From Microcystis aeruginosa W13-11 (GTDB lineage: Bacteria; Cyanobacteriota; Cyanobacteriia; Cyanobacteriales; Microcystaceae): a DNA stretch of 64,000 bases. The DNA is taken from positions 1 through 64,000 of the forward strand of contig JAADBR010000007.1 in NCBI GenBank assembly GCA_009995705.1, read 5' to 3'. Below, piece by piece: positions 36,095 through 43,651 of this stretch; positions within the stretch are counted from its first letter, which is position 1; each line of letters starts with the position of its first letter. Position numbers and translations under genes: made by a program. The notes under the pieces are model-generated. The model did not search any database and had not been told where the DNA came from. It saw only the letters and a program-made list of their open reading frames with translations.

Positions 36095-36560
36095 ACCCCG
36101 TCTTTTTAGGACGGCTTTAGTTTGAATATTAGCGCATTTACACGATATATGCTAAAACCTGAGCCATGGAGAAAGCCGATCGCACCGATTTTACCCAACA
36201 CCCGACTAGAACGAACTAATCAATTAAGTCTTTGGCCAGATAAGGATTTAGTCGATTTATGCCCCCCGATCAAACCATACCAAGTAACGAAGAGCCACCC
36301 TAAAGCAAGCCCTGCAAACCTCGAACTCGGCAATCTAACATCCGAAATGGGATTTCCTCCTTTGGCAACGTTTGGAACTGGATGTGAAGAATAGAATCCT
36401 CGGATTAGAGTACAATCATCGCATCGGCTCAAATCGGATCGAGGGAAAGTTCCGATGGTTTGAGTTTCGCCATCATGACAGTCTCTTTCAGCAGCCAACT
36501 GGCGAAGTTGCCTGAGAAATGTTCGGCGAGGAATCGGCAAGTGTTATATAAGAAGCGAAT
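36095..36560. other. gap with degraded coding traces
   Basis: No intact gene. On the plus strand a stretch around 36351-36507 reads as a plausible protein tail (WDFLLWQRLELD, then HRIGSNRIEGKFRWFEFRHH, TGEVA, stop) but lacks a start and is out of frame with sequence upstream. It may be a relic of a small nuclease-type gene. It is G+C and codon-poor compared with flanking genes. Confidence 0.3.
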
Positions 36561-36655
36561 TATAGTCATTTCAGATAAGTCTGATACACTCTAGACCAGT
36601 TAAACCCTTATGAACTCTGGCATTAATATTCTCAATCTTAATTGAAATGACTATA
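36561..36655. repeat. 95-bp MITE with terminal inverted repeats
   Basis: TATAGTCATTTCA at 36561-36573 is the exact reverse complement of TGAAATGACTATA at 36643-36655, and the match extends imperfectly (GATAAG versus ATTAAG). The ends are T/A, as in IS630/Tc1-type MITEs that insert at TA. No coding potential. The rest to 36942 contains AAGGACTT...AAGTCCTT pairing but nothing more. Confidence 0.75.
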
Positions 36656-36942
36656 GAACACAATCTTCGGTGTAAGGACTTGATCGCTTAGGGGGTGATG
36701 GAATATTATAAGGATAGGTTTTTTCAGTGAGCCATTCATGCGGATGCGGAGGTTAAGTCCTTAAGTTTGATTACGGTTCGACCGAACGCTCAGTAACGTT
36801 CTTCTCGGCGATTTGTGACAAAGGGTATTGTGAACAGTTTCTTGGGTAACTAAGCCATGAAAGCCTTGTCCAGACTCCATTTGAAAAGCTATAGATCACA
36901 AGAAACCCAAGAAAGCTAAATTGATTCGCATCTGGCTTAAAT

Positions 36943-38151
36943 ATGAAAAAAACACTAAGATTACTGACTATTTTATTCATCTTCATACTGTCGCTAGTTA
37001 TAACTGCGTACCCTGCTTTTGGACAACTAAAGGAAGGTAATTTAATTTGGACGACGAAAAAAGAAGACATATTTTATATTTTAAGAAGTAATAACACTGA
37101 ACCATCTATATTTCTTGATATTCCAAAAACATTTAATATTGAGGAGAAATATGAGACAGGAATCAATCTGGTTAGTAGTGGGAAATCTATTTTTTGGCTG
37201 GATTATGATTATGAGTTTAAAGAAGGTAATGACAATAACATTTCCATGTATGTTTATAAGATGGACATTGATAGTTCTAAACCATCTGTTGTTGTTGATC
37301 TTTCTCAAAAAGCCGGGTCTCAAATAGTACGATGGCTTCCTAGTTCTTTAACGACAGACGGGAAGTTTCTTTTTTGGTTAGGACAAAATTTAGAGGGAAA
37401 GCCTTTTATTTATAGATCAGATATCAACGGGGATAATTTTTCCATGCTTTTTGAATTTCCCTATGAATCTACAACATTTAAGCCTCAGATAAAACATTTA
37501 ACAACAGATGGAAAATTTATTTATACACATATTGACGGCAATCTTCGTAATCAATCTGGCGGCTTCGGGAAGCCAACCGAACTTCTATTAAAAATAGAAA
37601 TAAGCAATCCCGTTTTATTAGCCATTGATGCACTGTCGATTTTACGAAACTGGACAGGTGAAGGAGTTTTGTCCATTAATAATTATGAGGATACTTTATT
37701 AACAGATGGTAAGTTTTTATACTTTACTATTGGTTTACTTAATCCTAATTATGGCGACGGAATTGTTCGTTCTGATTTTGATGGACAAAATCCATCAATG
37801 ATTGCTGAGCCTAAATATGGGACTGGTGTAACCAGTATGACTAATAATAAGAATTCACTTTTTTGGGTATTGCGATATTCTAAATTTTTCCAAATTAATC
37901 AATCAGCTTTTGATGGCTCATCAAAGTCTGTTTTAATTGAGGTTCCTGTTGAGGATAGTCTCTCTCATCATAGAAGTTATAACATACCATCAAGTATTGC
38001 TTTTGTATCGAATAATTATCTAAGCTCACAACTAATAATGGGAGTCGTCATTTTCTTGATAAGTTTGGCAATAATCTTAGGTTTATTATGGATTTTCTCA
38101 AAAAACCTATCAAACTCTGACATAAAACAGGAGGCTGAATCAGAAGCTTAA
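36943..38151 (+). CDS. membrane-anchored beta-propeller-like protein
   Basis: 402 residues. A signal peptide (residues 1-27, ending PAFG) is followed by a repeat-rich ectodomain and a C-terminal membrane segment (~377-395) with a short charged tail. Repeat cues are TDGKFLFWLGQN..IYRSDI, TDGKFIYTHIDG and TDGKFLYFTIGL..GIVRSDFDG, a DUF5050/YWTD-like propeller pattern. No catalytic motif. It lies 73 bases upstream of the TIR-GUN4 gene on the same strand and might be a sensor for it, which is only inference. Confidence 0.6.
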   Translation: MKKTLRLLTILFIFILSLVITAYPAFGQLKEGNLIWTTKKEDIFYILRSNNTEPSIFLDIPKTFNIEEKYETGINLVSSGKSIFWLDYDYEFKEGNDNNISMYVYKMDIDSSKPSVVVDLSQKAGSQIVRWLPSSLTTDGKFLFWLGQNLEGKPFIYRSDINGDNFSMLFEFPYESTTFKPQIKHLTTDGKFIYTHIDGNLRNQSGGFGKPTELLLKIEISNPVLLAIDALSILRNWTGEGVLSINNYEDTLLTDGKFLYFTIGLLNPNYGDGIVRSDFDGQNPSMIAEPKYGTGVTSMTNNKNSLFWVLRYSKFFQINQSAFDGSSKSVLIEVPVEDSLSHHRSYNIPSSIAFVSNNYLSSQLIMGVVIFLISLAIILGLLWIFSKNLSNSDIKQEAESEA

Positions 38152-38224
38152 AGCAATCTAATTCGTTATCTGTTAACAATTTTTTTTCTAATTGAATAAT
38201 CCAGAATCATTTGTAAAAGAGACT

Positions 38225-39253
38225 ATGAAAGACGTATTTATTTGTCATACCAGTGAAGACAAACTCCTGATTGTGGAACCTTTAGTTTCAGGCTTAGAAA
38301 AAGCTGACATTACTTTTTGGTATGATCGGGCTGAAATTAAATGGGGAGATAGTATTACAGCCAAAGTAAATGAGGGTTTAAGAATCTCTCGTTTTGTGAT
38401 CGTTGTCTTGAGCGAAGCTTTTCTAAACAAAAATTTTCCTAAGCGAGAGCTTTTTGCCGTCCTCAATCAGGAAATTTATTCCGACCAAACTAAGGTACTT
38501 CCCTTATTTTCAGATAATAAACAAAAACAAAAGGTATTAGAAAGTTTACCGTTACTCAATGATAAACTATACCAAACTTGGAACGGCAATGCAGATACAA
38601 TTATTGAAGCTCTTTTACCTCACTTGTCAGAAAAAACAACGCTTAAATTTAAAGATCAAAAAAGCGTAAATGATTTTTTAAACAGAGATAAGTTGATTTC
38701 TGATAAAGGGGTTAGCTATAGCAAACTTCGCCAACTCCTAGAAGCACAAAGTTGGCTAGAAGCTGATCAGGAAACGATCAGGCTTCTTTATAAAGCTACC
38801 GATAAACCAGAATTTACATCAACCTCTCATTTTTCTGTTGTAAAAATTCCCAATGAGGCCTTATCATCAACTGAACTTAAAAGAATATCTGATAATGACT
38901 TAATTATTCTTGATAATCTTTGGAAAAAGTATAGCCACAACAAATTTGGTTTGTCCACTCAAGCTCGTATCTATGAACAAGAAGGGGAAGATTACTATGC
39001 TTTTGCGAATCGTGTCGGATGGCGAAAAAATGGACGGTGGTTAGGTTACAATGATCTGACTTGGCATTTGGACGCTCCAATCGGTCATTTACCTTGGCTA
39101 CAGGGGAAAAAAGCATATCCCACAGAAAAGCAAATGAGAGACTTCCATTTTAGTGCTTGGACATTGAATTTAGGTGACAAACATTTTGCCGAAGATACTT
39201 TTATTTCAGTTCTCCAGCAAAAAGTAATCAGTATTCCTTTATTACAATTTTAA
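38225..39253 (+). CDS. TIR-GUN4 fusion protein
   Basis: 342 residues from ATG 38225 (AAGAGA just upstream; the TTG at 38192 is less likely). Residues 2-125 form a TIR domain: KDVFICHTSEDK, WYDRAEIKWGDS, ISRFVIVVLSEAFL and a Glu75 in RELFAVL placed like the catalytic Glu of NAD-cleaving TIRs. Residues ~164-292 form a GUN4 domain: YSKLRQLLEAQSWLEAD, LDNLWKKYSHNKFGLSTQ, GWRKNGRWLGYNDLTWH and APIGHLPW. GUN4 normally binds porphyrins and stimulates Mg-chelatase. The rest (to 342) is GUN4-like. First gene of a tight three-gene operon (3-base gap). Confidence 0.85.
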   Translation: MKDVFICHTSEDKLLIVEPLVSGLEKADITFWYDRAEIKWGDSITAKVNEGLRISRFVIVVLSEAFLNKNFPKRELFAVLNQEIYSDQTKVLPLFSDNKQKQKVLESLPLLNDKLYQTWNGNADTIIEALLPHLSEKTTLKFKDQKSVNDFLNRDKLISDKGVSYSKLRQLLEAQSWLEADQETIRLLYKATDKPEFTSTSHFSVVKIPNEALSSTELKRISDNDLIILDNLWKKYSHNKFGLSTQARIYEQEGEDYYAFANRVGWRKNGRWLGYNDLTWHLDAPIGHLPWLQGKKAYPTEKQMRDFHFSAWTLNLGDKHFAEDTFISVLQQKVISIPLLQF

Positions 39254-39256
39254 ATT

Positions 39257-39901
39257 ATGTCTCAAAAAATACCTAATTACCTTCGAGCGATCGCCAAATC
39301 TCTTGCTTCCGTAGTAGGCCCATTTGGAGTTCCTGTTGAGTTTGTCTTGAGTCTTTATGATGATCAAATAGAGAACTCCCGTGAGGCCAAACTAGATGCA
39401 ATGATTGCCGAAGGTCAAAGCCTTACTCGTAAGTCTCTTGATGCTATCTTTGAGACAAAAACTGAAATAAAAGAATTACGAGAACAATTTATTTTAGGAA
39501 TACAATTTTGTTTTACTATTCTTATGCAAAATCAAGAATTATTGCAAAATTCTGAAAATTTTGAAGATAAGTTTTCACTTTTACTTGATCGACAAAAGGA
39601 AAAACTTGAGGAAGCTGGTTTTTTGACCAAAGATGTTTTGGTAAAGGAATTGTCAGAACTTTACGGAGCAGATAGCGAACTATTTAAAGCAACTGTTGGG
39701 TCAGCAGGGTTTCCTTTAGCAACAATTCCTCAAAATCAAGCACCCAAAGTTATTGTCTTTCAATTTATTAATCGTTGTTATACTTTGAAACTTAACGATC
39801 AGTTTAAAATATTTAAAGCACTACATAAAGAAAATCCAAATAGTAAAGTTTTGCAATTGGTGAGTGCTTTGCTACAAGAAAAATCCTCAAACCAAATATA
39901 G
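39257..39901 (+). CDS. hypothetical protein with C-terminal adaptor-like domain
   Basis: 214 residues. The N-terminal 120 are helical (IAKSLASVVGPFGVPVEFVL, LREQFILGIQFCFTILMQNQ), perhaps membrane-active. Residues 131-199 form a small domain (ELSELYGADSELFKA to the ENPNSKVL region) that aligns without gaps to residues 19-87 of the next protein, with 21 identities in 69 by my count. Sharing of such a small helical domain between neighbours is typical of effector-associated adaptor domains (EADs). Function not known. Three bases from the TIR-GUN4 gene and 18 from the next gene. Confidence 0.6.
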   Translation: MSQKIPNYLRAIAKSLASVVGPFGVPVEFVLSLYDDQIENSREAKLDAMIAEGQSLTRKSLDAIFETKTEIKELREQFILGIQFCFTILMQNQELLQNSENFEDKFSLLLDRQKEKLEEAGFLTKDVLVKELSELYGADSELFKATVGSAGFPLATIPQNQAPKVIVFQFINRCYTLKLNDQFKIFKALHKENPNSKVLQLVSALLQEKSSNQI

Positions 39902-39919
39902 CAGTTAAACATTTAATTT

Positions 39920-40786
39920 ATGAATACTCCTTTTGAATCTTATTTAGGCTCTCTCAAAAATCAAATTATTAGAGATTTAATTTCTCTCTATGAATCTAAC
40001 CCTTCTCTTTTTATTGCTATCATTTGGGAAGGGGGATTTTCTACAGCAAATTTGAGGAATGAACAAACTTTACGGATTATCATTCAAGACTTTATTTGTC
40101 AATGTAATTCTCTTAATATTCTGCAATTACGACAAGTATTCACCAAATTATGTGAAGAAAATCCAGGCTGTGAATCACTAAGAAAAGCGAGGAATTCACT
40201 TTATCAAAACTTTGATTACGTCAATAGCAACGAAGATTGCATCACTAAATACTTAGTAAAAGTCAAACCAAAACTTATCAGTCAAGGTTGCTCATCCATT
40301 TACAATGATATTATCTATGATGGCAAAGTTTTTAAACAAGTAGCTAAGGCAGCTAGTTTTAAAACATCAATTGGTGGTCTGCCAATGAGAGGAGAAGCTT
40401 TTTTTATCTTTTCCTATTTTTCTTCTGTTAATGATAACTCATTAAGAGAGTTTGCAACGAATTGTTTCAATTACGCCAAAAAAAACTCTAACTTTTCTAG
40501 TATTTTACAAACTGTTTTTAACTTGAAGATACCTACAAATATTTGTTTTTCTATCTCTATGACAAACTTCATAGATGAGAAAACAAAACAACAAATTACA
40601 GAGACAAATCCCTTTGAAGAAACGGTAGATCTTCTATGGTATATTGTACCAATTGTTTACACTCTTAATGAAAAGCAAGTTTATTTTTACGAAGAAGTGT
40701 TAGAGTCTAAACCTTGGGAGTTTTTCAGAGGTGAAATAGTATGGAAAGAACTCAGGAAAATTATCAAACAAACTTTAAGTGACTGA
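39920..40786 (+). CDS. hypothetical protein with N-terminal adaptor-like domain
   Basis: 288 residues. Residues 19-87 (DLISLYESNPSLFIA to CEENPGCESL) match the C-terminal domain of the previous protein. Residues ~100-288 form an uncharacterised domain with IYDGKVFKQVAKAASFKT, GEAFFIFSYFS, KIPTNICFSISMTNF, and a final WEFFRGEIVWKEL. It has no recognisable catalytic motif. Third gene of the TIR-GUN4 operon. An untested but plausible role is a regulated effector or receptor that docks through the shared domain. Confidence 0.55.
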   Translation: MNTPFESYLGSLKNQIIRDLISLYESNPSLFIAIIWEGGFSTANLRNEQTLRIIIQDFICQCNSLNILQLRQVFTKLCEENPGCESLRKARNSLYQNFDYVNSNEDCITKYLVKVKPKLISQGCSSIYNDIIYDGKVFKQVAKAASFKTSIGGLPMRGEAFFIFSYFSSVNDNSLREFATNCFNYAKKNSNFSSILQTVFNLKIPTNICFSISMTNFIDEKTKQQITETNPFEETVDLLWYIVPIVYTLNEKQVYFYEEVLESKPWEFFRGEIVWKELRKIIKQTLSD

Positions 40787-40853
40787 GATAAACAGTTAAA
40801 CCATAATCAGGTAGAGAACTGGAGTTTCACTGGCACGATGGCCTCCAGTAAAC

Positions 40854-41771
40854 TTATTGAGAACTTGATAACGTTTTATTATAAAATTCGGCCTTAACAT
40901 TATCATTAAATTCAGGACTTTCTAGATAAGAACTAACTTCAATTACCCCAACTTTATTAATACTTTGTGGAACGTTTTCAAAAGTAATAATAACCTCAAT
41001 AGGAGTATCTTTAATCAAAATATTGTCGGCTTGATAAGTGCCAGAATTACTGCCAAAATCCACTTTGGTTGCAATTAGTTCTTTGCCATCCTCAATGATT
41101 CGACTTCTATTGTTAGAATTATAATTTCCGTGTATATAGAGCTTGTTTTTATCTTGTGTACTTGTCACCAAAAGAGAACACTTAATATTTTGAAGTGTTG
41201 AAGAAATTGCTGATCTTTGGCATTCTTTGAACTGAAAAATTAAAGATTGGACTTTAACAATCTTATCCGTATTAAAAGAAGACGGCTCTGACACAGTTTC
41301 ATTATCAGGTGCGAATGAAGCCGAGGGACTGGGTACATTTGAACCTTTTAAAGATTGATTTTCATCTTCAAGCTCTTTTATTTTTCTTTGCAAATCTTTG
41401 TTTTCCGACTCAAGTGTATTTAATTTTTCTGATAACTGAACTAAATCGGAATTGCTAGATTGCTGAAAAAAACTGGAAATCCATTCCTTAAATTTATAGC
41501 CGCCAAAAGCAGATAAGGGAATAGTTAAAACTAATAAAACAGAAGCAAATATTAGGTAATTTTTTCTTTGTTGTTTTTTAAATTCTTTATTCACTTGTCT
41601 GCGAACCTCCTCAATGTCATTATCCATTAACAAGTCAGATAATCCTAGTTCTTGAAGACTCTCTTTAACAGCATCAAGAGTGATAACCTCTTGATTATAC
41701 TGTTTTCTATAGGAAAGTCGTTCAATCAATTTTTTAAACTCATCATCACTTAAACCATCCTTCAAAACCAT
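40854..41771 (-). CDS. membrane protein with coiled coil, unknown function
   Basis: 305 residues from ATG 41771 (MVLKDGLSDDEFKKL). The longer TTG start at 41852 would read through the leader that is shared with the lipoprotein gene, so I reject it. The N-terminal cytosolic part has helices like a small death-fold or EF-type helical domain (LSYRKQYNQEVITLDAVKES). A membrane segment lies at ~71-92 (LIFASVLLVLTIPLSAFGG), followed by a coiled coil (QLSEKLNTLESENKDLQRKI) and a beta-rich extracytoplasmic domain. Convergent with the TIR-GUN4 operon, with a 67-base gap. Confidence 0.6.
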   Translation of the reverse strand: MVLKDGLSDDEFKKLIERLSYRKQYNQEVITLDAVKESLQELGLSDLLMDNDIEEVRRQVNKEFKKQQRKNYLIFASVLLVLTIPLSAFGGYKFKEWISSFFQQSSNSDLVQLSEKLNTLESENKDLQRKIKELEDENQSLKGSNVPSPSASFAPDNETVSEPSSFNTDKIVKVQSLIFQFKECQRSAISSTLQNIKCSLLVTSTQDKNKLYIHGNYNSNNRSRIIEDGKELIATKVDFGSNSGTYQADNILIKDTPIEVIITFENVPQSINKVGVIEVSSYLESPEFNDNVKAEFYNKTLSSSQ

Positions 41772-41816
41772 AAGTTTTACCCTAAATTGTAATAAAAATA
41801 AATGTCTGTCATTATT

Positions 41817-42059
41817 CTGTATAACACTTTCTACGGTAACGATATGGGTCAACTTTCTGTATATCCATCTATTTTAGTGCAATCGCAAGAAAAATTTCCC
41901 CATATCATACCCAAAAGCGTGTTAGCCATAGCACATTGCCAAAAACCTTGTTTAACTAAATTCCTGACAATAGGCTGAAATAACACGAGTTTTCTGGTGT
42001 TATAACAACTATTCGTCAATCTGACCGCACCTCTTGACAAAAATTTACAATTATTCGAC
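41817..42059 (-). promoter_or_regulatory. leader/upstream region of the coiled-coil gene, paralogous to 43026-43281
   Basis: Four ordered blocks match the upstream region of the lipoprotein gene. Read on the plus strand they are AACACT..C....GTAACGATAT (41824-41845), AACTTTC.GTATATC, TAACTAAATT..TGACA.TA.GCTGAAATAAC, and TCTGACCGCAC then ACAAAAATTTACAATTATTC. Spacing differs by indels. Both copies lie upstream of minus-strand genes of the island, so they may carry the same promoter or 5' leader. The remainder to 42372 shows an A+T-rich gap with a short GGTGCGTT-type fragment. Confidence 0.6.
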
Positions 42060-42372
42060 CCTTAGCGATCGCTATCGGGAGATAGAATGTGCGTGGTGCG
42101 TTACCCAAAATCGATCGGTGGAGCAGTAGGACTTGCATTAGACCTCGACCTAATATTATCTCAAGACCAAAAGTCTTTCTAGTTAAGGAATCTACCCGAA
42201 TAAAAATTATTTTAATTGCCTCATATTTTTTCAGTGAAATTGAATTAGCAACGATAGATATACATTTCAGCTATCGAACTACTTAATTAGTATATAGGCT
42301 AAAAGCAAGCTGTGACTGGGTTATAATTTTTGAAGATGTCTATTAGGGAACGCACCCTACGGCGATGGCAAT

Positions 42373-42978
42373 CTATAGTTTACATGTTTTCAAGGAGTGG
42401 AAGATAGCAGCCCTCGTTAGCTCCGGTAGCGGGCCTATCCATCTTTCCCTCACCGAGCGCGAGCGCTCCGGATTGCCGCTTGTCCACAGACGTTCTATGG
42501 TATTGAGGTCAGTACAGGGTATGTTCAGTAATTTATCTCGCGGGCAAAGGGCAGACCACGTCGGATCTTTTCTGGCTCGATTCGATTCGTAGCAGCTCGA
42601 TTCTAATCCCACGGACTGGGCAATTACCTTTTGAGTTTCGTCAAGAGCTGGATAATGATAATCGTTTAAGATTTTTTCACTCCTCTCTCTCGTCAGAGAT
42701 CCCGTCTCGATGTTAGTTACAGTTACAACGTACGCTTCCTTCAGCAGGTCGCGCAGGCGGGTGTAGTCCACCCCTCGTTCGGATTGCAAATCGTTGGATT
42801 GCAAATCGTTCGTCACTCGATTTTTCGCTGTATCCAGCAACCTCAACCCGCTGGTCTGATTTTGGAGTCCACAGGAAGCAAGAATTGCACTGCTAAAACC
42901 GACTGCGATCCATCTTAGAAATGCCTGCCGCAAAACCTTGAGCGCGTGGGGCAGTTGTTTTGGTTTATATGGAATCAC
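42373..42978 (-). CDS. lipoprotein with divergent GUN4-like sequence
   Basis: 201 residues. The signal region ends in lipobox LASC (Cys36). Then GVDYTRLRDLLKE resembles the beginning of GUN4 and LLNIPCTDLNTIERLW resembles the GUN4 core, but the porphyrin-facing YSNGRFGFSVQ part is missing and the middle is replaced (RERSEKILNDYHYPALDET). Start GTG 42978 with GGAG 7 bases upstream. A 15-base tandem duplication (GGATTGCAAATCGTT) gives the SNDLQSNDLQS repeat. Second GUN4-like protein within 3.1 kb of the TIR-GUN4 fusion. Confidence 0.55.
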   Translation of the reverse strand: MIPYKPKQLPHALKVLRQAFLRWIAVGFSSAILASCGLQNQTSGLRLLDTAKNRVTNDLQSNDLQSERGVDYTRLRDLLKEAYVVTVTNIETGSLTRERSEKILNDYHYPALDETQKVIAQSVGLESSCYESNRARKDPTWSALCPRDKLLNIPCTDLNTIERLWTSGNPERSRSVRERWIGPLPELTRAAIFHSLKTCKL

Positions 42979-43025
42979 GAGAGTCTCCTTAATGCGTAAA
43001 TGTTCAGGGGTTTACGAGAGAATAT

Positions 43026-43281
43026 CTGTACAACACTCTCCAGAGTAACGATATAGCACTTTTCACGTTACTGAGGTATCGACAAGTTTTGCCAACAAAG
43101 GGTTTAAGACCCTTGCCCATACCTTATTCTGATGAAAACTGCTATATGTAGAAACTTTCGGTATATCACCCCATTAACTAAATTTATGACAGTAAGCTGA
43201 AATAACGGAACTCTTCTAAAAGACTAGCTAAGATTTCTAGTTCTGACCGCACTTCTCCACAAAAATTTACAATTATTCGAC
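43026..43281 (-). promoter_or_regulatory. upstream region of the lipoprotein gene, paralogous to 41817-42059
   Basis: The same four blocks in the same order: ACAACACTCTCCAGAGTAAC..ATAT (43030-43055), AACTTTCGGTATATC, TAACTAAATT..TGACAGTA.GCTGAAATAAC, and TTCTGACCGCAC with ACAAAAATTTACAATTATTC. An insert of about 90 bases separates block 1 from block 2. It could be a duplicated promoter/leader or a small mobile unit; the sequence does not decide. Confidence 0.6.
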
Positions 43282-43297
43282 GCAATTAATGGACTGT

Positions 43298-43651
43298 CTA
43301 TAGAGCTATCGACTCGTTAGAAGTTTCTCCGGCGGGTTGGGGAGTGGAAAACCCCGTCAGGGATAGAAGCTGTCGTTTAGCGGTTTCCCGTTCGAGACGG
43401 TAACGGTTCAACTGAATCTCTAACTGTTCTCGTTGGGCGATTCTTGTTAGATAGGTTTCGGTGGATGAACCGCCCAGACGGTAATCTATCTCGGTAATCC
43501 TGGTCAAGAGGTCATGATTGGACAGTTGGGCTGATATCGCCCGTTCTCGATCGCCGGCGGTTTCGTAGGCGATCAGGAGGGTAAGATATTTTCTCACAGG
43601 GCGATCGCATTCTTTCCTAGGGTGTGTTCCCTGAAAACATGACAATTTCAA
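43298..43651 (-). pseudogene. TolC-like C-terminal fragment
   Basis: 117 codons. From KYLTLLIAYETAG onward the sequence resembles a TolC/outer-membrane efflux repeat (LLTRITEIDYRLGGSSTETY, LTRIAQREQLEIQLNRYR, LLSLTG). The first ~20 codons come from a repeat-like junction (GGTGTGTTCCC), so the true N-terminus is lost. Full-length TolC proteins have about 450 residues. Probably a truncated relic and not expressed usefully. Confidence 0.5.

Follow-up and report, generated by a model that had tools for sequence, protein, structure and literature searches.

Do three closely packed genes of the bloom-forming cyanobacterium Microcystis aeruginosa W13-11, the first of which joins a TIR domain to GUN4, a chlorophyll-biosynthesis protein with a role in Mg-chelatase regulation, form a single system, and what might that system do? 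The genes lie at 38225-40786 of the 64,000-nucleotide stretch of contig JAADBR010000007.1 analyzed here (hereafter, the window), where an initial annotation, made from the DNA letters, had proposed an operon for conflict or signalling in which two proteins share an adaptor-like domain. That proposal is supported by the matches of the TIR domain and by a domain common to genes 2 and 3, which we name EADx. With moderate confidence, we consider the three genes a real and coherent conflict-type cassette of rare distribution, whose mechanism we infer.

A TIR-GUN4 gene followed by two EADx genes

Three open reading frames (ORFs) follow one another on the + strand (38225-39253, 39257-39901 and 39920-40786) with intergenic gaps of 3 and 18 bases, confirming the coordinates first given for a 342-residue TIR-GUN4 protein and its two downstream neighbours. 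An alternative TTG start of gene 1 at 38192 is likewise open. The features of the operon are as follows.

38225..39253, + strand: gene 1, TIR-GUN4 protein of 342 residues, ATG start (ORF scan, Pfam, homologues)
38234..38539, + strand: TIR domain (Pfam TIR_2, 62 bits; phmmer to solved TIRs, E down to 5e-17)
38447..38449, + strand: codon of the candidate catalytic Glu75 (alignment to solved TIRs)
38699..39103, + strand: GUN4 domain, paralogue type (Pfam GUN4, 115.9 bits; LxNxLR not conserved)
39257..39901, + strand: gene 2, the constant component, 214 residues, N-terminal helical domain and C-terminal EADx (ORFs, homologues, profile, model)
39257..39610, + strand: N-terminal helical domain of gene 2 (homologue alignment; predicted structure, confidence mostly under 80)
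39611..39883, + strand: EADx copy A, CARD-like fold in the model, EAD1-related profile (BLASTP, profile, model)
39920..40786, + strand: gene 3, 288 residues, EADx and a restriction-endonuclease-fold-like domain (ORFs, homologues, model)
39950..40210, + strand: EADx copy B, in gene 3 (BLASTP, profile)
40232..40780, + strand: P3C domain, restriction-endonuclease-like predicted fold (homologues, predicted structure)

EADx spans ~85 residues. BLASTP aligns the two window copies with E = 3e-10 and 29% identity over 76 residues, bearing out the earlier reading of a domain common to both downstream proteins. When the ORFs of 11 loci were searched with a profile made solely from homologues of gene 2, the gene 3 copy of a near-identical operon in Microcystis viridis FACHB-1342 (genome G001) was found with E = 4.9e-16. 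Profile A4, which includes both window segments and hence recovers them by construction, found no third credible EADx in the window (next best E = 0.056), and only these two copies were found in G001. Gene 2 had no Pfam, PADLOC or NCBIfam match. That EADx is an already named Pfam family was rejected, as none of 15 segments matched any Pfam EAD model; four other Pfam families each matched one member of the 15 segments (best E = 0.013).

The principle of effector-associated domains (EADs) was defined by Kaur et al. 2020 (PMC7159879; this and the other papers cited are drawn on as excerpts). EADx scored 34.0 against EAD1 in a profile-profile comparison that covered EAD1 only, and another EAD or bacterial Death-like domain (bDLD) family could be nearer. 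None of 200 shuffles reached this score, and the controls gave 11.9 against P3C, 14.1 against the gene 2 N-terminal domain, 11.4 against reversed EAD1 and 9.9 for reversed EADx against EAD1. By these profile scores, EADx is distantly related to effector-associated domain 1. The best PDB neighbours of its predicted structure are CARD, pyrin and death-effector domains, and EADx does look like a recruitment adaptor.

EADx pairs and GUN4 recur beside gene 2

Our samples comprised 386 genomes of the phylum, 340 of the order and 50 of the family. Gene 2 matched 3 of the 386 phylum-sample genomes as a single-sequence query (one match marginal, with a stop) and, as a profile, 9 of the 340 order-sample genomes in 4 of 135 genera; the protein database holds 10 gene 2 proteins, window copy counted. 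Eight gene 2 loci with downstream DNA were compared (G001, G319, G522, G589, G608, G612, G615 and G622:C88), excluding G624:C85, at a contig end, and two loci without an intact copy of gene 2 (G622:C22 and G624:C60). A second EADx gene lies downstream of gene 2 at seven of the eight, the exception being G589, which retains only a rearranged gene 2; the non-enzymatic EADx is thereby found in two adjacent genes with different fusion partners, in genes 2 and 3 as at 7/8 loci. The second EADx is fused to P3C in Microcystis, to Band7-vWA-kinase in G319, to GUN4 in G608 and G615 (broken in the latter), to TRADD_N-CHAT-partial GUN4 in G612, and to PPR repeats with a weak, below-cut-off nSTAND3 match in G522; in G622 the ORF stops shortly past the second EADx. 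At loci other than that of G001, gene 2 accompanies other EADx partners, and GUN4 without TIR.

Copies A and B form distinct groups. Across six operons, EADx identity was 0.285 within and 0.274 between operons, and a tree of these operons separated the A copies from the B copies with support 1.0, although two EAD1 outgroup sequences sit within the B group on a long branch of the tree. The divergences of A and B correlate (r = 0.85, six operons), a correlation that common descent of the genomes could explain. Gene 2 in G612, G615 and G622 (L060, L061 and L059), at a common genomic site, carries one in-frame TAA each, suggesting frequent decay of the cassette. Three gene 2 proteins (P0005, P0009 and P0010) have nearly identical N-terminal parts, with EADx divergent in P0005 and P0009 and P0010 ending early, a pattern that looks like domain exchange.

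GUN4 lies within ~6 kb of gene 2 at at least five of the eight loci (G001, G319, G608 and G615, with a partial domain in G612), a lower bound, given the matches listed and the portion of the G522, G589 and G622:C88 DNA that the scan covered; with 6 to 30 GUN4 copies per genome, 0.22 such loci would be expected. Because five loci (G608, G612, G615, G622:C88 and G589) occupy a single genomic site beside an ORF of 707 residues, the count by site is 3/4 (P = 7e-5, in a test designed after the loci were seen). Locus G482, which is unrelated to these, encodes EAD10-GUN4 after a caspase-P3C protein whose partial match to EAD10 falls narrowly short of the cut-off. Because EADx-GUN4 fusions adjoin gene 2, Rosetta-stone reasoning makes GUN4 the natural candidate for the link of TIR-GUN4 to the EADx pair.

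Might a stand-alone TIR-GUN4 gene simply neighbour an unrelated gene 2-gene 3 pair? Profile A4 found no EADx on TIR-GUN4, and among the matches listed the exact trio was seen in one genome, M. viridis FACHB-1342, which was also the only one of 12 Microcystis genomes with a full-length TIR-GUN4. The check for a conserved neighbourhood, suggested in the initial annotation, is partly borne out: gene 2/EADx pairs and GUN4 recur, and among the matches listed the exact trio was seen only in Microcystis. The 3-base gap and the common insertion of all three genes nevertheless speak against chance adjacency, as do the recurrence of GUN4 with EADx or P3C at other sites, including as fusions to EADx, and public homologues of genes 1, 2 and 3 at 87, 74 and 82% identity (that of gene 2 a fragment). 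We regard independent neighbours as improbable.

The TIR domain of gene 1

The TIR part of gene 1 exceeds the curated cut-off of Pfam TIR_2 (E = 1e-16) and aligns by phmmer to solved bacterial TIRs, among them the NAD+ hydrolase AbTIR. In three alignments, to the bacterial TIR structures 4lzp, 4c7m and 3h16, Glu75 (numbering of the 342-residue form), the E of RELF, falls opposite the glutamate of their (R/K)EL motif, upholding its designation as the candidate catalytic residue, and PADLOC defence models likewise match the domain (PDC-S66, E = 3.4e-33; retron RT-TIR XII, 2.6e-26; ThsB, 9.5e-21). A TIR domain with a Glu at the catalytic position, the combination sought for an NAD-cleaving TIR, is present in these alignments, and the gene 1 TIR is a probable NAD-destroying enzyme. 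The whole protein is 99% identical to a M. aeruginosa protein. Its GUN4 part matches the PADLOC PD-T4-6 model (E = 3.9e-29), presumably a GUN4-bearing kinase model, and we do not read this match as a sign of a PD-T4-6 system.

Among other proteins with both domains, P0035 and P0036 have the TIR/GUN4 order reversed, and P0033 and P0035 (a TIR-GUN4 and a GUN4-TIR protein) carry a short N-terminal 'YNERIEGxYIQGNVYY' segment that, by eye, could be an EAD10-like or amyloid-type recruitment motif. A plasmid search for TIR-GUN4 at >=80% coverage gave a single match, at 29% identity, on p057_F of Nostoc sp. C057: a GUN4 protein (L166, 3129-4139) matching over 84% of the length of TIR-GUN4. Its neighbours include an AAA protein and genes for SEFIR and another TIR, and the plasmid is typed as mobilizable.

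GUN4 and the tetrapyrrole question

The annotated GUN4 domain is well supported, with a Pfam score of 115.9 bits against a cut-off of 29.2 (E = 2e-33), and its GUN4 core is recognizable. Its proposed role as a tetrapyrrole sensor fared less clearly: the core is kept and LxNxLR, a motif linked to bilin binding in GUN4 (PMC10156173), is absent. The motif is intact in 3/3 GUN4s taken as canonical and absent from 11/11 aligned fusion or cassette GUN4s, that of gene 1 included, and published GUN4 paralogues also lack it (PMC10156173). Because the bilin-binding motif is missing, tetrapyrrole gating of TIR-GUN4 is unproven. In the alignment, Tyr and Gln of the gene 1 domain pair with W192 and N211 of Synechocystis GUN4, in which W192A changes porphyrin binding (cited in PMC8967248).

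GUN4 may instead be a protein-docking domain or bind another ligand, the trigger being sensed by the gene 2 N-terminal domain or by a coiled-coil protein encoded at 40854-41852, an explanation that we take seriously and rate a little under even odds. The loss of LxNxLR and the residues opposite W192 and N211 are in line with it, as are the constancy of the gene 2 N-terminal domain in the cassette and the occurrence of a coiled-coil homologue beside another P3C gene. Bilin and porphyrin may, however, bind via different residues, and the remainder of the GUN4 core is well kept.

A different explanation takes the operon for a physiological stress switch, not a defence, in which TIR-GUN4 would tune NAD metabolism to the state of the chlorophyll/heme pathway. 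The part played by GUN4 in Mg-chelatase regulation suits this idea. So does the excerpt of Kaur et al. 2020 (PMC7159879), in which GUN4 is read as a sensor of photosynthetic status; the same text names kinases, caspases, trypsin and TIR as fusion partners of GUN4 and proposes tetrapyrrole gating, and the coupling of TIR to a tetrapyrrole sensor, initially thought new, was thus already in print, although 'TIR-GUN4' as a term was not found in the literature searched. The sporadic island, with gene 2 in only 9/340 genomes, and the conflict-type partners of EADx and P3C elsewhere (CHAT, TRADD-N, vWA, caspase and NACHT) argue against a stress switch, which we judge unlikely.

Gene 3 and the P3C domain

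The C-terminal domain of gene 3, P3C, occurs elsewhere in the same protein as EAD8, EAD10, caspase, phosphorylase or TIR, making it a module common to three EAD types. No Pfam or NCBIfam name was found for it in the searches made; gene 3 had no Pfam match above cut-off and none in PADLOC or NCBIfam, and its identification as ASFV_360 was rejected (Pfam E = 0.03, 14.2 bits, below the cut-off of 22.5).

The P3C model resembles the nuclease structures of Can2, NucC, Cap4 and FokI. This predicted likeness would suit a division of labor in which TIR is only a polymerising scaffold and gene 3 kills. Across 20 sequences, though, the (nearly) invariant P3C columns include MRGEAF, with no PD-(D/E)xK signature, no ExK and no conserved upstream Asp, and gene 1 keeps Glu75 and the flanking TIR motifs; we consider a purely structural TIR very unlikely.

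An accessory island

The operon sits in an island accompanied by three further genes.

36250..43598, no strand: accessory island of ~7.35 kb, operon and three further genes (alignment to other Microcystis genomes)
40854..41852, - strand: convergent coiled-coil gene, 332 residues, membrane-like segment by eye (phmmer E = 4.3e-77)

Alignment to four Microcystis genomes (L153-L156) stops at window 36205-36251 and restarts at 43598-43599, and in L153 the query has the two aligned blocks directly adjoining. All 12 Microcystis genomes contain the two conserved genes that flank the site; they are 791-992 bases apart in five, 8,630 in G001, which is collinear with the window at 98.4%, and 8,322 in the window, 4,898 in G311 and 124 kb in G413, and lie on separate contigs in 4/12. 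G311 has a 1009-residue ORF, glycoside-hydrolase-like by eye, at the same genomic site (L158, 3413-6439), and the site thus takes alternative cargo.

The six ORFs of interest in the island are 36943-38151, genes 1-3 and two convergent genes. In another cyanobacterium (L121), an EAD8-P3C gene has a homologue of the coiled-coil gene directly downstream, so the coiled-coil gene of the window is possibly associated with the system. Upstream, the protein encoded by 36943-38151 (+) is 402 residues long, with a TDGKF segment that is repeated and, by eye, a C-terminal membrane-like stretch; it matched no library family above cut-off and, among the loci compared, was seen only in the M. viridis copy. 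The short protein of 42373-42978 (-) has a lipoprotein-like start by eye and two separated GUN4-core-like pieces (residues 47-82; residues 150-167, 15.2 bits, below cut-off), and has the look of a GUN4 gene that decayed or was rebuilt within this island.

At the left edge, near 36250, 36122-36394 (+) reads by eye as the decayed end of an insertion-sequence transposase gene, which may have been the insertion site. A comparison of 100 left-end with 120 right-end bases for transposon ends found no direct or inverted word of >=9 bases in common. A plasmid or phage origin was rejected, gene 2 having no match (E<=0.001) in 72,556 plasmid and 50,697 phage records.

Proposed mechanism and comparison with known systems

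CARD pairs bind each other. We propose that the operon is a mobile conflict cassette (abortive infection or regulated death) on the EAD principle, a variant for which the island yielded no NTPase and in which a TIR-GUN4 effector would be joined through GUN4 to paired EADx adaptors; we give this proposal an even chance. It builds on the accessory insertion, on the domains and their adjacency, and on the way in which EADx pairs and GUN4 come back at sites unrelated to each other, and from these we infer the following steps. Gene 2 would be the constant part, its N-terminal helical domain bearing one CARD-like EADx, and gene 3 would carry the matching EADx on its restriction-endonuclease-fold-like domain. 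Upon a trigger, A-type and B-type EADx would bind each other and assemble. TIR-GUN4 would act as effector, its TIR cleaving NAD or producing an NAD-derived signal, and GUN4 would tether the TIR to the assembly and may gate it via a ligand, with cell death or defence as the outcome. A more specific version, which we offer tentatively and think rather doubtful, is a self-contained, NTPase-free death switch in which a constant sensor protein and an effector-like protein each carry a CARD-like domain, the two domains differing and forming an obligate pair, to which a GUN4 that has lost its chlorophyll-pathway role brings a TIR NADase, possibly gated by a tetrapyrrole or a signal made by phage.

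EAD-coupled systems, as excerpted from PMC7159879 and PMC8195603 (a 2021 paper on bacterial Death-like domains, with GUN4 as an effector-linked domain), likewise duplicate a small helical adaptor in neighbouring genes with varied effector fusions, and their repertoire of TIR, GUN4, kinase, vWA, CHAT/caspase, TRADD-N and phosphorylase overlaps with that seen here; the EADx profile also matches EAD1. Unlike what those excerpts describe, EADx lies outside the Pfam EAD models, its two copies form separate groups, and a constant 214-residue partner, gene 2, is present; none of the six island proteins matched Pfam models of the MoxR, STAND or GTPase core of the EAD ternary system. Bacterial CARD-NLR systems (Lysobacter, cited in PMC13236601; LypABC) resemble the cassette in a predicted CARD-like fold, paired adaptors and suicide-type logic, but here the adaptor pair is inside a TIR-GUN4 operon, and no NLR ATPase, trypsin or gasdermin match was found in the six island proteins. 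With the cyanobacterial GUN4 paralogues and fusions in the excerpts of PMC10156173 and PMC7159879 it has in common a GUN4 core on a signalling enzyme with the bilin motif gone, but it differs in lying in an accessory island, where TIR-GUN4 is linked to paired EADx copies. The TIR part matches the PADLOC models of antiphage TIR proteins (Thoeris ThsB, retron-TIR and PDC-S66); unlike in those systems, the island proteins include neither ThsA nor a reverse transcriptase.

New here, as far as our literature searches reach, are EADx, gene 2 as a constant component, the division of the pair into A and B copies, the P3C module and the accessory island. P3C, as defined here, is a restriction-endonuclease-fold-like module occurring with three EAD types, and the three-gene cassette would let the proposed tetrapyrrole gating of effectors by GUN4 paralogues be tested directly. 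The cassette resembles a hitherto unrecognised form of a suicide/defence switch predicted for bacteria, here in a bloom-forming cyanobacterium. If this is true, it would add a Death-fold-like adaptor family and its constant partner to the predicted cyanobacterial suicide network, in an EAD system without an NTPase found in its island and with GUN4 repeatedly beside EADx.
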